NCBI RefSeq assembly: GCF_004210375.1
Contig: NC_134831.1
Location: 868,001 to 932,000 of the forward strand
Reading direction: 5' to 3'
From: Tachypleus tridentatus
Taxonomy: Eukaryota; Arthropoda; Merostomata; Xiphosura; Limulidae
DNA: 64,000 bases
Shown: positions 1,627 through 40,415 of the stretch, in pieces
How the letters are laid out: the number at the start of each line of letters is the position of its first letter
Position numbering within the stretch: position 1 is the stretch's first letter
The notes under the pieces: model-generated
Database searches by the model: none
Told to the model about the DNA's origin: nothing
Seen by the model: only the letters and a program-made list of their open reading frames with translations
Position numbers and translations under genes: made by a program

Positions 1627-4600
1627 GTGAGGTTATACCATAAGAAAGAGAGTTACCATAGAAGAAACAGGCATTAAATAATGTTTGTTATAATCAAGTA
1701 TAAACATAAGATATTTCTGTTAATAGTCAAAATTAATTTTTCAGTCAGTGGTCCAAAATAGTTCATAATGTTTCTGTACTATAAATGTTACATTTACTGT
1801 AATATGCATAAGTAAAATGACAGTATTATTTTTTGTTTTATCAAATGCTTTAACCTCTGCGACTGTAATCATCTCCATCAAAATTACAGTACTGTTACAT
1901 GAAGGACCACTTTGACAACTTGAACATTCTCAACTTTCAGTTGTTTTCTTTAATGACCAAAAATCAAATACTACAGAATTTAGTTCTGGTTCTCAAATTT
2001 GTTGCATGGAATAAATAAAACCACATGTTATTCTTGTTGTGTTTCATTTATATCAGTCAGTTCAGCCCATTAATAATTCCTTTTTTTAATAAGTGTTGTA
2101 ATTCTAGGATTGTTAAATTGCAAAAAACTGTAACTCAATTATCAGAAACTCTGATGCCATCTCATTTTTTTAACATCAATTCCACAGACAGTTTTGACCT
2201 CTAAAGCTATCATCCATTAGTGGGTAACACAGAGGTGTTAATAAAGTTATATATATGAAAGTTGTTGTCTGTTTGATAAAATTTTCCATTAATAACTCAA
2301 TTCAAATTTTGAAGTAGATCTTATGAAGTTGTAACACTGTTTAAAAAAGATACAAAATAATTACATAACTCTGACAAGTAAAAATCCATACAACACTAGA
2401 GGGGCACTTCATAGAGGATGTTCCTCAATCACACAACGTTGATCATATTTGGTCCTCAAAAAGTACAAGAATGTACCTGTATGTCCATTGTTATTAATGG
2501 ACATGGACCATATTTTGCAAAACAATGAGAAACAATATTTTTCAAATATTCACCAAGTTTGATCAAAATCCAGTCAATTTTGTATGAGTTATAGGACAAA
2601 AATAATGTGAAAAAGCTGTCCCCATGTTAACAGATAGGATTTGTTTGTGTGTATGTGTTATCTTGATCTTTGACCGTCCAAAACTAATGACTTATAAGTC
2701 CAGCCATGGTCCAACTTTATTCGATTGTTTTTGAGAAATCTTGCTAACGAACCCACACACACAGATGAAAACATAACTTATTTTTGTTTTAGATATTAGT
2801 TTAGTGAAGAATGTTTCCAAAAAATTTATTACAATATTCTGGATAACATTTATTCTTTCATTACAGCAACGAATGATTAAACTTCTGGAAAATAGAAAGA
2901 AAGCCATATCCACCAAAATTTCTTCAATTTCTCAAAAAAGTCTTTCTCCTGTCAGCTCGTCAAAGAATGAAGAAATGTTACCCGAAAAAGATAAGATTGC
3001 AAAGTTAACCGATAGTAATGGAGCATTGTTGGAAGAACAGTGCAAGTATTTAGAAGAACCAAAATTTGAAGAGCAGAATAGCAAGGGACAGAAGATAGTT
3101 AGAGGAATTTCCAAATATGTTTCTGAGAAAAGCAGCAGCAAAGAGAAACAGAAAGATCAAAAACAAAGTGGAAGTGGAGAAAATCTATACAAATCAAAAT
3201 ATGAGTTTCTGAAAGTGAAATACAAAAAAGACCGAGCAGAATGGGAAGAAAAACTGTCTAAAGAAAAAACTTCCAATCCTTCCAGACCAGGAAAGGCTGA
3301 AGACTTACAGGATGCTCTTAAAAATTGTAAAGATCAGTTATGGAGTGTCAAGTGTAAGCTTGAAAAATCCCCTGAAAGGAAGGGAGATACTCTTGTTTCA
3401 TGGAGAGAGGTTTATAAGCTTTGTGAGGATGTAGAAAAGCTACTTGGTTCTAGTGAAAGGAGATCAAAGAAGGATAATGAGGTCTCTAAATTAAAGAATT
3501 CAATAGCTGAACTGCAAAAAACGTGTGACGGAAGACAGAATGAACTTGAGGCCTTAAAAAATGAATTTAACAATCGTAAGATTGATGTAACAAAGTTAGA
3601 GGAGAAACTAAAAAGAACACTTGCTGAATTAGAAAAGTCCAGGGATGATAAAACAAACCTGCAAGGTCAAGTAAGGCAACTGGAGGCAGTTTTAAGAAGC
3701 TCTTTACATGATTCTGATGGAATGGCCAATAAACAGCAAGATTCTCTTTTGTTACTGGAGAATTCGGAGCTGAAAACAAAATTATTAACAGTAACTGAAG
3801 TAACAAAGAGCCTTAAAAGGAGATTAGAAGAAGCTCACCAAAGTTATGATGATCTAGAAATTAACTGTTATAAGCTACAACAAGATATGAAGAAGGTACA
3901 TGACACCCATTTCTCTCAATTGGCTCTCATGACTGCCCGTGTTGATGATTTAACTCTAAAACTCACAGAATCTGAGAGGAACTTTCGACAGACAAAGCAG
4001 AAACTCACAAGAAGTGAATCCAGGCAGGAGAGACGTAAAAGTTCTCTTCGTGGTAAAGAAGGGTTGAATTTAACCAAAGAATTTGAATTTAAATTGGGAG
4101 ATCTAGAGCAAAAGATAGAATCTATTGAACATTCTTTGAAAAAATCACAACAGAGCAAAGAAGGAAATGAAGTCCTTTCAACTCAGGTACAAACACAAGA
4201 GAGTAAACTGGGATCTGAAAGCTCATCAGCTGAATCCCATGGTTTCCTAGTTCGACTCAGTAATTTAGATACAAAAGTAAAAAATGTGTACAGTATAGCA
4301 AAACCTTTAGATCAAGGAAGTGATAACTTGGAAAAACCAAAAATTTGTTTACAGATTAAAAATGACAGTGAAGAAAGTGGTCCAGAAGAGTGGAGTACAT
4401 TGTCTTTAGCTAACAGTGTCACTGACCTTAATGATTTGGTAGCAGAAAGTGTTAACGAACAACCCAAAACTTTATCAGAATGTGTAATTTCTCTGTCTGA
4501 CAAAATTCGATCCTTGGGTGTTTGGTTTAAAAATATCTTATATCTCATTCATCAGCAAGAAGATAGTTTGAATGGAAGTGTTAATGCTGAATTAAAGCAT

Positions 4601-7600
4601 CTTGTAGATGCTGTTGAGTGTTTGTCATGTGGAGCTGTTGAAAATCTTCGAGACCAGGATAAGGGAATGTTACTAGAAATAGTGTATCAATTAACTCTTC
4701 TTCAGGAAGCAGTGAAAGCTGTTGATAGGCTTGCCAACTTTGATACTTCTGAAAGGAAAGATATTGTTGAAGAAATTGGCAGAATACATCATTGGCTATC
4801 CACTTTGGAGAGACAGCTCTCCTCATCTCCTGAAGTTATATCTGTCTGTGGTGGTTGCACAGCTGTAGGAAAAACACTGTGTGTCTTCCTTCAAGATTTT
4901 GTTCCACTCACAGGCATGAGTATATCACAGAAGGATACCAATTCTGTGATCAGCATCGAACAACTTGACTCTGAATTAATGACTCAGCTACAGAACCTAG
5001 AAGACCGGTGGAAATGCATTGGCAAAATCTTGAACAAGACAAGAGTTGATGACTTAGCAGCCCTGCTTTCTTGTGTGAGTGACAATTGTATCAGTGACAC
5101 ACACTCAACAAGGCATGATTGGCAATCAGTCACTGATTCATCACTTACAGAAATGATCGTTAATGAAGAAATAGTTTTAGCAGAGCTATGTACCATTATC
5201 ACAGGGACCTGTCTCAGAATTCGAAAAGCATTAGTCCACCAACGAAAGCAAAAGCTCAGCATACTGTGTGGTGATCAAGAAGCATTTGAGCTGTGGTGCA
5301 CTTTGATAGAACAGTGTGTACAGCAAGAACTGGATCTGGCTAAATCTGAACTGCGAGCTGGTATAACAGAACTTGCTTCATTACATCAACTAGATTTGGA
5401 GTGTTGTCTTAACCAGGAAGTTCTGACAAAGGCAGCTGAGCTGGCAAGTGTTGTAACTGTCATTGGTACTTTTCAAGGAGTTCTTACTTACTTGAGGAAC
5501 AAAGCAGAACATATTACAAGCTGTAGAGAGATTAAGTGTAATGTTCAAGGTAGTTCAGCTTTGTATGATGAACAGTGGATGGCTAAAGTGCAGGCTTGCA
5601 TCTATGAGCAAGCAAAACAAATGGTTTTTGGTGCATTTTGTGTCTTACCGTGGAATGGTAGTAAATGTGTACATGAAGCAATTGAGAACAGTTCAGAAAA
5701 CATTGCCAAACAAAGTGTCTCAAATCTGGTGAGTTTGCAGCAGCAGTTACAGGAAAAGCTGGCAGAAGAGAGGTTTCAATTTCAGTTAGAGCTTACAACC
5801 TTACAGAAGAGATTACAGCAACAAGTGAAAGAGGAATGTTCTAAATGTGCAGAACTTAGACAAGATGTTTACCAGTTGCAGGTCCAACTAAATCAACACC
5901 AAGACTCATCACAAAAAAGCAATGTGTGTAATCAGTGTGAAGAATTGCAAAATAATCTTTGTGAGTTGGAGAAAAAGCATGCAGAGGAGATGCAAGACCT
6001 TAAGTCTGAATGTGACTGTAAAATAGAAATTATAAGGCAGGACATGCAAGAATTGTTAGAGCAACAAGTAAGTGTCTTCTTCGAAACAATAAAAGGTTTG
6101 TAACGATGTGCTCTTTATCCATTCATATTGAAAAAATCTGAAGCATATTTAGATTAACAAATTACGAAAGTGATTTTTATCCTCTATTCAGTTGAAATTT
6201 TTACATAATAGAATTGTAATTTAAAATTAAATGTTGTTTGAAACCAGTTTCATACTGTAGACTTGAAGACTGATTAAGTTTACAATGTAACAGAATTTTT
6301 AAACACAGTTTCCTAGTTTTCAGCAATATCAATTTGATATTTTGTTATGAACATTCTTATAAAGACTGTTTTAATAAAAAAGAAACAGCTAGAAAGGCTT
6401 AAGACACTTGTACTTATTATCATTTTTCTATAGAATTCTTTGCAAAGAAGAGTTTTTAATCCACCAACCCCTACTTATCATTGCAACAAATTGAAAAACA
6501 CAACAAAGACAGAATACAGCCAAACCTTTCTTTTAAAAGCAATAAGTCTCTATAAATGTATTTTGAGACTTTTCTTCCAATTTAACTTATGAACATTGTA
6601 TTAGATATTTGCTGTCTTTATAGTTAAAGCAAAGTTCAGATTAAACAGGGCTGGACACAGCCTAGTGGCTAGTTTGACAGGCTATAGATTAAAAAAGGTC
6701 CAAGGTTTAAGACGTGATTTTAGCGAAAGTGATTCATACTCTCAGGTGTGGGCATGTTATAAAAGTGACAGTCAATCCCATTGTTTAGTTCAAGGAACCA
6801 GACAAAGCCCTAGTGGCAGCAGTTACAGTTGATTGGCCACTGTATAGTCAGTAGTACAGAATTAGGGACCTGAATCCTAGGAATCTCTGACCTGGCCATT
6901 TAGCCCGCCTTACAAAGATTGAAAATTCCTATTCCAGATAAAGTAGTAGTCTTTGTTTTTTTTGTGACACCAAAATGAAAATAGTTTTTAAAATATTGAG
7001 TGGATTTCTTCTTTTTTTTTGTGAAAAATTACAAGCTAAAAAAAATCTGTTAAAACCTGCTTTTCAATGATAAATAGGTAAATCAGTTGCATCTGAATGT
7101 CTTTGAACATTTTTTGTTTACTATATTACTCCAAAATATGATTATTACTAACTCAGAAACTTTGATACAACTGTCATTTTATTTTAAGAGAGCAATCAAT
7201 AATGATTTTTTCTAAAATATGAGACAAACTCAATGAAACAACCAAGGGAATTCAGAAAACATTCTTTAATTCTATGTGTAGTGAATTTTGTATGTTGTGC
7301 TCTCTTTCAACATTAACATTATGTTAAATAGAAAATATCTCAGGTTACCTTCATTAGGTCATTGAAATAAACATTATGATTAAAAGATAAAGACCTGTGT
7401 ATGTGGTAGTTTTATTTGTTTTTTTAATTTTTTCAAAGTTATGCAAGGACTATTTATCCTAGCTGTCCCTACTTTTCTACTCATAAAATTGAGAGATGGC
7501 TAGTCACCACCACCCACTTTAAACTCTTTTACCAATGAAAAGTAGGATTGATTGTCACATAAACCCCGTGGCTGAAAGAACAAGTGTTTTGTGACAGGAT

Positions 7601-38740: not shown

Positions 38741-38811
38741 ATAAAGCTGCGGATTTTAAACACTAAAAACAACTTTCGATACCTCTGGTGGACATAGCAT
38801 AGATAGCCTAT
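38741..38811 (+). repeat. SINE family 2, left half, split by the THAP/YqaJ element
   Basis: Reads cactaaaaac, tttcgatacctctggtgg and gcatagatagcctat. The right half resumes at 40385. Joining the flanks across the insertion recreates an ordinary family 2 tail. Confidence 0.75.
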
Positions 38812-38927
38812 AGAGGCTTTGCGTGTGACGTCACTCTTGACCTAGTTACTGCTGACCGCCATGATGGGTGGCAAGCTCGGCGTGTTTATATTCCAACACA
38901 AGGGTGATTCATAGTCAAAAGTGCGCG

Positions 38928-39878
38928 ATGGTACACTCGTGTTGTGCATTTAACTGTTAAAATCGACATGGACAGGTAGAAAATGTGTCATACTACAGAT
39001 GTCCCAAAGATCCCGACCGAAGAAGACGATGGATTGCAGCTGTCAATAGGAAAAACTGGACACCTCCAGAGCACACCAGACTTTGTAGTAAACATTTTGT
39101 GTCAGGTATGTATAATTCATCTATAGCCAGGCTGAATAAATTGAAACTTACACGCATGATATATGTATAGCAGAACACACTGCAGCACCAGTCAAAGAAA
39201 TGTTTTTGCACACTTTTCTTTTACTTTTAAATAACTGAATAGTAAATTTACTGAAGGAACAATATCATTCATGATGAATAGGTTATATAGCCATTTGTAC
39301 ATTAAGACAAAATGTTAATATCTCTTAAAGGACCAATTTAAGTGATTCATCAGAAAACCACAACTGGCACAAGATTAAAAAGTGTGCAAATAATTACTTT
39401 GTTGGCTGTACATTCAGTTGTTAAACAATGTTCAGCATATTCAGTTATATATATATATATTCAGTTAAAAGTGTACAGTGTATCTGTTATATACAGAAAT
39501 ATTATCTGATGATGCCTGTAGATCTATATCTTAACTAAATTATTGTACTCTGTTTCAGGGACGAAGAGTGATGATCCCCTATCACCTGACTATGTACCTT
39601 CCATATTTCATTTTACACGTTCTCCCCTGAAGAGAAGGAAAGCTGCTGAATTGTGTAAATATGAAAACAGGAAAGAAGTGACCAAAAGGAGAAAAGAACA
39701 ACAAAAGAGACATGAAGCTGCTGCTGGGCTGCTTGACCTTGCTTTCATAGAATCTGCTGGCACTGCTGCCACTGATAGCAGCTGTACTGATTCTGCTGAT
39801 GAACTTGAAGCTACATGTGATAATTTTGACTTATGTAATCACAATACACAACTGAGACATGTATGTAATATAAAATGA
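38928..39878 (+). pseudogene. THAP-domain transposase N-terminus (two exons, one nonsense codon)
   Basis: Exon 1 38928-39105 starts MVHSCCAFNC, has an in-frame TAA at codon 11, and continues NRHGQVENVSYYRCPKDPDR to RLCSKHFVSG. Exon 2 39559-39878 joins in phase (donor TCAG|GTATGT, acceptor tgtttcag) and reads TKSDDPLSPDYVPSIFHF. These are the zinc-binding Cys-x3-Cys ... Cys-x2-His and the AVPTIF-type box (YVPSIF) of a THAP DNA-binding domain, about 90 residues. A basic segment (RRKAAELCKY, VTKRRKEQQKRHE) and an acidic/Ser-Thr tail follow, then a stop. No DDE domain remains. The family usually uses the THAP domain to bind the element's ends. Confidence 0.82.
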
Positions 39879-40256
39879 TGTACAAACTTTTGCTGTAATG
39901 ATGACTTTATCCGACGTTGCCCTGGTTATCTGGACATTCTGTACAAATCCTGCCACAAAGTACTTGTACGCATCAAGGCTTTTGTAACCTTTTAGACTTT
40001 CATTTGTATAGGTGGAAGTCCTGTTTATCAAATATATATAAATGTCACCATATGTAATATTTGGCAGATCTACTCCGGCAACAGTCTGACTTTGAGCAAC
40101 GTTGTCTTGGCTGGATATTACTGGCGTAAATACACGTGGCGGGAGCATATACGGGTCTCCTACACCCAGTTCCTTCACGTTTTCCTCATACCTGGCCTTT
40201 TCAGCACCTGTCAGGTGTGCTACAAGTGATGAAAAGCCAGCGGCAGCTATTTGCAT
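39831..40256 (-). pseudogene. N-terminal part of a YqaJ/SWIM-type protein from the same element
   Basis: The ORF starts MQIAAAGFSSLVAHLTG and includes VDLPNITYGDIYIYLINRTS and then LKGYKSLDAYKYFVAGFV...DKVIITAKV. I recognise the pattern LPN(I/V)xYxDIYxYLI...LKxYKSLxAYxxFxxGxV from metazoan proteins that carry a SWIM zinc finger (CxCxnCxH) and a YqaJ exonuclease domain further on. Neither domain is present here. After ITAKV the match stops, close to the point where the THAP gene's tail overlaps. The start codon lies about 130 bases inside the right end. Confidence 0.7.
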
Positions 40257-40384
40257 GTGAATAGTACTGAATACAGCAGTTGTTAACTCGTTCAGTCATG
40301 CGGGACACTTGCCACCCAATATGGCGGTATGTTTACAAACCTCGTTGTGGTCACGTGACACTAATAGGTTCACGTAAAACCTCT

Positions 40385-40415
40385 ATTGTGTAGCTATGCG
40401 CTTAACCACAAACAA
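40385..40415 (+). repeat. SINE family 2, right half (tail)
   Basis: Reads attgtgtagctatgcgctta then accacaaacaaag, the standard family 2 tail. Confidence 0.75.

Follow-up and report, generated by a model that had tools for sequence, protein, structure and literature searches.

How two gene fragments, the start of a THAP gene entering from the left and the start of a second gene entering from the right, came to meet tail to tail inside a compact unit with matched ends is the question raised by a locus in the horseshoe crab Tachypleus tridentatus. The locus lies in a stretch of 64,000 nucleotides (NC_134831.1, positions 868,001 to 932,000), called the window below, and its coordinates are those of the window. 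A preliminary description of the sequence had proposed that the unit is a deletion derivative of a two-gene transposon of the ISL2EU type. A Coagulin domain was matched 19 times in the genome and in none of 14 control genomes, in keeping with a horseshoe crab or a close relative. Comparison with other copies in the same genome makes it almost certain that the window copy derives from a cut-and-paste transposon of the ISL2EU group and is non-autonomous, and uncovered two features of its relatives, a nuclease with a PHD finger and a related lineage with no detected nuclease.

Anatomy of the window copy

The element occupies positions 38812 to 40384 on the plus strand (1,573 bp), begins with AGAGG and ends with CCTCT, and is bracketed by AT at 38810 to 38811 and at 40385 to 40386. 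Comparison of copies placed the terminal inverted repeats at 38812 to 38825 (AGAGGCTTTGCGTG, usually AGAGGTTTTGCGTG in other copies) and at 40371 to 40384 (AGAGGTTTTACGTG on the minus strand). An inner inverted repeat, imperfect, 21 nt long and 90% complementary, pairs 38855 to 38875 on the plus strand (ACCGCCATGATGGGTGGCAAG, with the core CCATRWTGG) with 40308 to 40328 on the minus strand.

From the left, exon 1 of the transposase gene (38928 to 39105, plus strand, limits inferred from reading frame and GT-AG signals) ends at a splice donor GT at 39106 and encodes a THAP domain (Pfam PF05485, E = 3.7e-11 for 38961 to 39107), which confirms the THAP gene of the preliminary description. Exon 2 is represented by its start (39559 to 39865, plus strand), which matches transposase residues 1 to 108 of 448; the remainder, with the HTH and DDE regions, is gone. 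From the right, exon 1 of the YqaJ gene spans 39888 to 40256 on the minus strand, with putative limits, and the part encoding the SWIM-like motif, YqaJ, and the PHD finger is missing. The claim that a YqaJ/SWIM-type gene starts here survived in part: the right-hand piece (39834 to 40295, minus strand) had no Pfam match, and it is recognized as the start of the YqaJ gene only because the same DNA is YqaJ exon 1 in full-size copies.

Two points are added to the preliminary description. An in-frame TAA follows MVHSCCAFNC in exon 1, inside the THAP domain, at a position occupied by C in all 11 full-size or long copies compared. In addition, Pfam scanning and comparison with full-size copies showed that the window copy has lost both the DDE and the YqaJ domain. 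As a source of genes, the window copy is dead.

The host site and target preference

When the joined flanks of the element were used as a query, 40 of 1,243 candidates were scored, two of which were the window's own halves. All 38 scored nonself matches crossed the insertion point uninterrupted, at 78 to 90% identity, the outcome that the preliminary description had asked of empty sites. A further empty site in the window itself (44079 to 44013), read letter by letter, was gapless across 67 bp and contained one AT. These uninterrupted empty sites identify the AT as the duplicated target and the host sequence as a repeated unit, which is SINE-like in appearance, as the preliminary description also had it.

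To examine target choice across the family, 26 two-ended entries were reduced to 19 distinct insertions by removing duplicates and shared flanks. AT was present on both sides in 16 of the 19 and was missing on one side in the other 3. The base before AT was T in 14 of 19 insertions and the base after it was A in 16 of 19, giving a preferred target of T|AT|A, with the base composition of the flanks uncontrolled.

Full-size relatives in the same genome

Both ends of the window copy belong to a repeat family. With the left 89 bp as the query, 40 matches were scored (window included) from 98 candidates, at 96 to 100% identity; the right 95 bp gave 40 scored matches (window included) from 100 candidates, at 97 to 100% identity. 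Twenty regions were read, and 13 of them held copies of 4.7 to 5.0 kb that matched both ends, at nine distinct sites, including two (L056 and L061) in which the outermost end was altered. The remaining seven regions comprised one copy of 3.9 kb, three shorter copies, and three regions without ISL2EU-family ends. Flanks were shared within three groups among the 13 full-size copies, so the grouped copies are probably duplicates of host DNA. Common flanks were seen in L051/L052, L053/L056, L058/L059/L060, and L004/L005, a pattern that points to duplication of host DNA after insertion. Family members are about 94 to 97% identical to each other, and 15 of the 19 YqaJ-domain matches in the genome lie, by coordinates, inside them. 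The genome thus contains the longer, two-ended elements with DDE and YqaJ domains whose recovery the preliminary description had named as support for its proposal.

One full-size copy, L052, served as the source of the query proteins. Its plus-strand gene consists of a THAP exon, an intron, and a second exon that runs to position 2050 and carries HTH_Tnp_4 and DDE_Tnp_4 domains (Pfam E values of 5.6e-16 for THAP, 1.3e-17 for HTH_Tnp_4, and 3.9e-51 for DDE_Tnp_4). Its minus-strand gene has exon 1 at about 4800 to 4470, an intron, and exon 2 from about 4065 to 2589, the splice sites of L052 being predicted from reading frame and GT-AG signals. The second exon of this gene encodes a CxC...CxH motif, a YqaJ domain, and a C-terminal PHD finger. 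We call the motif SWIM-like after the CxCx(n)CxH pattern. Pfam recognized YqaJ (1.4e-17) and Viral_alk_exo (2.3e-6) in the nuclease, placed PHD-1st_NSD (0.033) under its cutoff, and returned nothing for either the SWIM-like region or the first exon of the minus-strand gene. No Myb/SANT match was found by Pfam in the five pieces of L052 scanned. Both a THAP transposase and a YqaJ nuclease are thus encoded by full-size relatives, in agreement with the ISL2EU type first proposed.

Comparison with solved structures aligned the nuclease with the exonuclease 3syy (E = 1.8e-6), which we take to be LHK-Exo, and weakly with lambda exonuclease (1avq; E = 0.012). The D...ExK residues, presumably catalytic in exonucleases of the 3syy type, align as GATPDGL...LEIKCP in the transposon protein and GASPDGL...IEIKCP in 3syy. 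The tail of the second gene matches PHD chains of the ING family (best E = 5.4e-6); because the Pfam PHD match is weak, the ING-like assignment comes from these structure-chain matches. Alignment with an ING-type chain places a leucine where ING has tyrosine and a histidine where ING has tryptophan, positions that we assume to form the methyl-lysine cage. Since both cage positions are altered, reading of methylated histone H3 by this PHD finger cannot be assumed. The presence of a PHD finger on an ISL2EU nuclease would be a new point, as judged against the main text of PMC4482050.

State and history of the family

None of the 13 full-size copies read had both proteins fully open; in each of them a stop, a shift of frame, or missing sequence interrupted one or more of the coding parts. 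Even in L052, the SWIM-like stretch is not in frame with the YqaJ stretch. The ISL2EU family in this genome may be dead.

Variation among ten independent copies was used as a test of selection by assigning two-state sites to codon positions. Singletons outnumbered shared variants by roughly ten to one in both main coding parts (transposase exon 2, 148 to 14; YqaJ core, 134 to 11), a pattern that fits a burst followed by decay. There was no excess of variants at third positions in these ten copies, with fractions of 0.29 in transposase exon 2 and 0.37 in the YqaJ core, and the third-position count in the short THAP exon (9 of 17) was not significant. The codon positions of the ten copies gave no sign of selection on either gene during the expansion, a result that is neutral on whether the nuclease was needed.

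The deletion junction and other derivatives

Alignment with the full-size copy L057 resolved the window copy into L057 positions 1 to 1062 joined to 4475 to 5009, so that it is an internal-deletion derivative of an element of about 5.0 kb from which 3,412 bp are missing. The joint falls at 39857 to 39865, in a 9-bp microhomology (ACATGTATG), and it is here that the two gene remnants meet tail to tail, as the preliminary description had it when it ascribed the joining of the genes to loss of the middle. Homology of 9 bp is reached by random joins about 1 time in 10,000.

The junction in the window is one of many in the family. Counting exact matches only and setting aside copies in which the joint carries a larger insert (L066), 21 distinct junctions in 19 copies had a mean microhomology of 2.8 bp, compared to 0.73 bp for random joins, and none of 20,000 simulated sets of 21 random joins reached the observed mean. 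Two junctions had more than three mismatches around the joint (that of the window and one in L038); without them, the mean of the remaining 19 was 2.4 bp, again reached by 0 of 20,000 sets. At two of the 21 junctions the microhomology was zero. The excluded copy L066 carries, at its positions 1899 to 2067, an insert of about 167 bp with the ends CAGTGGTGGG/CCCACCACTG and an 8-bp duplication (ACATGTAG), nested in the ISL2EU copy, which we take to be a hAT-like MITE. A tandem duplication of about 100 bp is also present in exon 2 of L066.

Several junctions recur at separate sites. The junction 1057/4257, which defines a derivative of about 1.79 kb, was spanned by 9 of 40 scored matches, the other 31 being one-sided. 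Five of these copies were read, and their right flanks were all different, as were the left flanks seen for three; one copy (C12) had no AT on the right. The differing flanks indicate that this short form, which has no DDE part, moved after being made, so that mobility of a shortened family member is demonstrated. L015 and L018 have two junctions in common at different sites, and both junctions of L038 are found in L004/L005 at another site. A further junction, 1114/3897, was spanned by 20 of 40 scored matches, and the start of exon 2 is open in many of these copies. This form may have spread by transposition or within a larger duplicated host repeat. Its copies were seen at C19, C1:41M, C1:103M, and other places, several of them clustered, and the flank was read for one.

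Alternative origins of the window copy

With the deletion established, the order of events at this locus is a subquestion within the preferred explanation. A full-size element may have integrated at this site and undergone the internal deletion there, leaving a relic that never moved again. When a query spanning the joint was used, the window itself was the sole whole match and all others were one-sided (40 scored of 131 candidates), so later movement of the window copy is unproven. Relative to the full-size majority, the window copy also carries 12 differences at 985 compared sites in the first 1,000 alignment columns and 6 at 497 in the last 500, inside the range of ten full-size or long copies (0.9 to 3.5% and 0.4 to 2.4%, respectively). 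Both results suit loss in place, but other derivatives (the nine copies with junction 1057/4257, L015/L018, and L038 with L004/L005) arose before they moved, and the window copy itself offers nothing to decide the order. We put loss in place a little short of an even chance. The deletion need not have been direct, and the window copy might be a second-step deletion of the 1.79-kb derivative, given that the left breakpoints of the two are only a few bases apart and that a join at ACAT is possible. However, that step would use 4 bp of homology where the direct route uses 9 bp. Substitutions are no help, as none left of the joint is fixed in the nine-copy group and the comparison is powerless there, and two gap columns common to the window copy and four of five rows of the group also occur in 5 of 11 full-size or long copies. 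We consider the second-step origin unlikely.

A different reading gives the short element a function: it would encode a truncated THAP protein acting as a repressor of the family. Such repression by a truncated protein is known from P elements in the form of KP. The window copy retains the THAP exon and splice signals, and the abundance of the 1114/3897 form, with its often open exon 2 start, could be cited in favor. The stop inside the THAP domain means that the window copy should not make such a protein, barring a translation start downstream of it, and a repressor role for it is very improbable. Finally, the two pieces could be unrelated THAP and YqaJ gene fragments that are tail-to-tail neighbors by chance. 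Nothing was found in favor of this idea, and it is refuted by the continuity of both pieces with the matched ends of a single repeat family that exists at full size.

A second THAP-DDE lineage and orphan YqaJ matches

The transposase search also revealed a second THAP-DDE lineage, with a transposase 43 to 58% identical, at 18 of the 99 matches listed (94 of 285 candidates scored). When the lists are compared by eye, these 18 loci are all several megabases or more from the nearest of the 19 YqaJ matches. Two of the loci, L073 and L074, were read; THAP and DDE parts were present, and about 3.5 kb downstream contained no significant match to the YqaJ protein. A THAP-DDE lineage with no detected YqaJ partner would be another new point. 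Deletion forms may be present among the second-lineage loci as well, and a nuclease that had diverged strongly could escape detection.

Comparison of L073 with L074 gave likely ends that share with the ISL2EU family an initial AG, a stretch resembling TGACGTCAC, and cores like CCATRWTGG. The inner motif common to both lineages is the most promising candidate for the site that the transposase binds, and the THAP finger probably reads the inner repeats (CCATRWTGGGTGG). The right flank of L074 had no clear AT. Inverted repeats first seen in L074 were rejected as ends when they turned out to be SINE pieces, and no significant support was obtained for reading the right part of the second lineage as exon 1 of a YqaJ gene.

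L067 to L069 were also rejected as family members. They are 27 to 34% identical to the nuclease and belong to another, decayed repeat; in the 6.5 kb read, neither the transposase nor THAP gave a significant match, and ISL2EU-family ends were absent. A fourth orphan YqaJ match, besides these three, lies at C7:51419631. Scanning a viral collection with the transposase gave four pattern matches, none of them confirmed. A phage search with the nuclease returned 182 records, all under 60% identity and none spanning 80% of the query; these matches show no more than the domain family.

Proposed mechanism and comparison with known systems

The ends, the AT duplication, the gene order of the parent, the deletion, and the microhomology can be read directly from the DNA. 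How the deletion formed can be approached through P-element and Ac/Ds internal-deletion derivatives, which keep their ends, have lost the middle at short homologies, and are moved by a full-size element. By that analogy we infer that a gap left after excision, or another internal break, was incompletely repaired and closed at a short homology. The spliced THAP-HTH-DDE protein of full-size relatives is the likely cutting and joining enzyme, and because the window copy retains its ends and inner repeats, the transposase of a full-size relative could in principle move it.

The role of the nuclease is more speculative. It might trim the breaks at donor or target and so allow homologous repair to restore the element or copy it, a guess that we hold tentatively and as somewhat less than probable. 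In a bolder version, the nuclease would be a chromatin-guided accessory outside the cutting machine. The PHD and SWIM-like fingers would bring the exonuclease to nucleosomes near the donor break, resection would drive template repair, restoring copies and making microhomology deletions, and the THAP-DDE sister lineage would transpose nuclease-free. We regard this version as improbable, slightly more so given that both of the presumed ING aromatic cage positions are changed. The window copy itself is ordinary; the parts deserving attention are the PHD-bearing nuclease and the nuclease-less lineage. With full-size copies, many readable deletions, and a THAP-DDE lineage with no detected YqaJ, this genome offers a natural comparison for the purpose of the nuclease.

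Among known elements, Kolobok makes a TTAA duplication and the P element one of 8 bp, and the family described here duplicates AT. The P-element and Ac/Ds derivatives resemble the window copy in their deletions but involve other transposase families and duplications. Pangu is distinguished by a 3-bp ANT duplication, compared to the 2-bp AT here. Alkaline exonucleases of the lambda type (3syy and 1avq) share the nuclease domain family, with D...ExK residues matching 3syy, and phage proteins are about 26 to 27% identical over about half of the query (the 10 listed of 182 records); the nuclease here differs in belonging to a transposon gene that joins it to a PHD finger. PIF/Harbinger elements have a DDE transposase of the same superfamily and two genes, but the main text of PMC4482050 gives them a TWA duplication and a Myb/SANT second protein, neither of which was seen here.

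A literature search returned no report of YqaJ with a PHD finger and a transposase and none of ISL2EU in Limulus; a horseshoe crab ISL2EU may already be catalogued, for instance in Repbase. The words PHD, SWIM, horseshoe, and Limulus do not occur in the main text of PMC4482050. According to a passage in a 2022 paper (PMC9179366), its authors were aware of no reported proof of ISL2EU activity.

The closest system is ISL2EU itself, one group of the PIF/Harbinger-ISL2EU-Spy (PHIS) superfamily as set out in the main text of PMC4482050. Common to both are an animal host, the AT duplication, THAP, HTH, and DDE domains in one protein, and a YqaJ exonuclease as the second gene. The three transposase domains were found together in L052, with transposase matches in many copies, and YqaJ in full-size relatives; the window copy keeps THAP and has lost YqaJ. 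The size is also close, at 5.0 kb here versus a published mean of about 4.84 kb. The ends are AGAGG, versus the GG that PMC4482050 describes as usual, a wording that makes it no strict requirement. The second gene here has an extra SWIM-like motif and an ING-like PHD finger relative to the ISL2EU elements in that main text. The T|AT|A preference is likewise new compared to the published A|AT|T (PMC4482050). In its main features, the family in T. tridentatus fits ISL2EU as published in the main text of PMC4482050.
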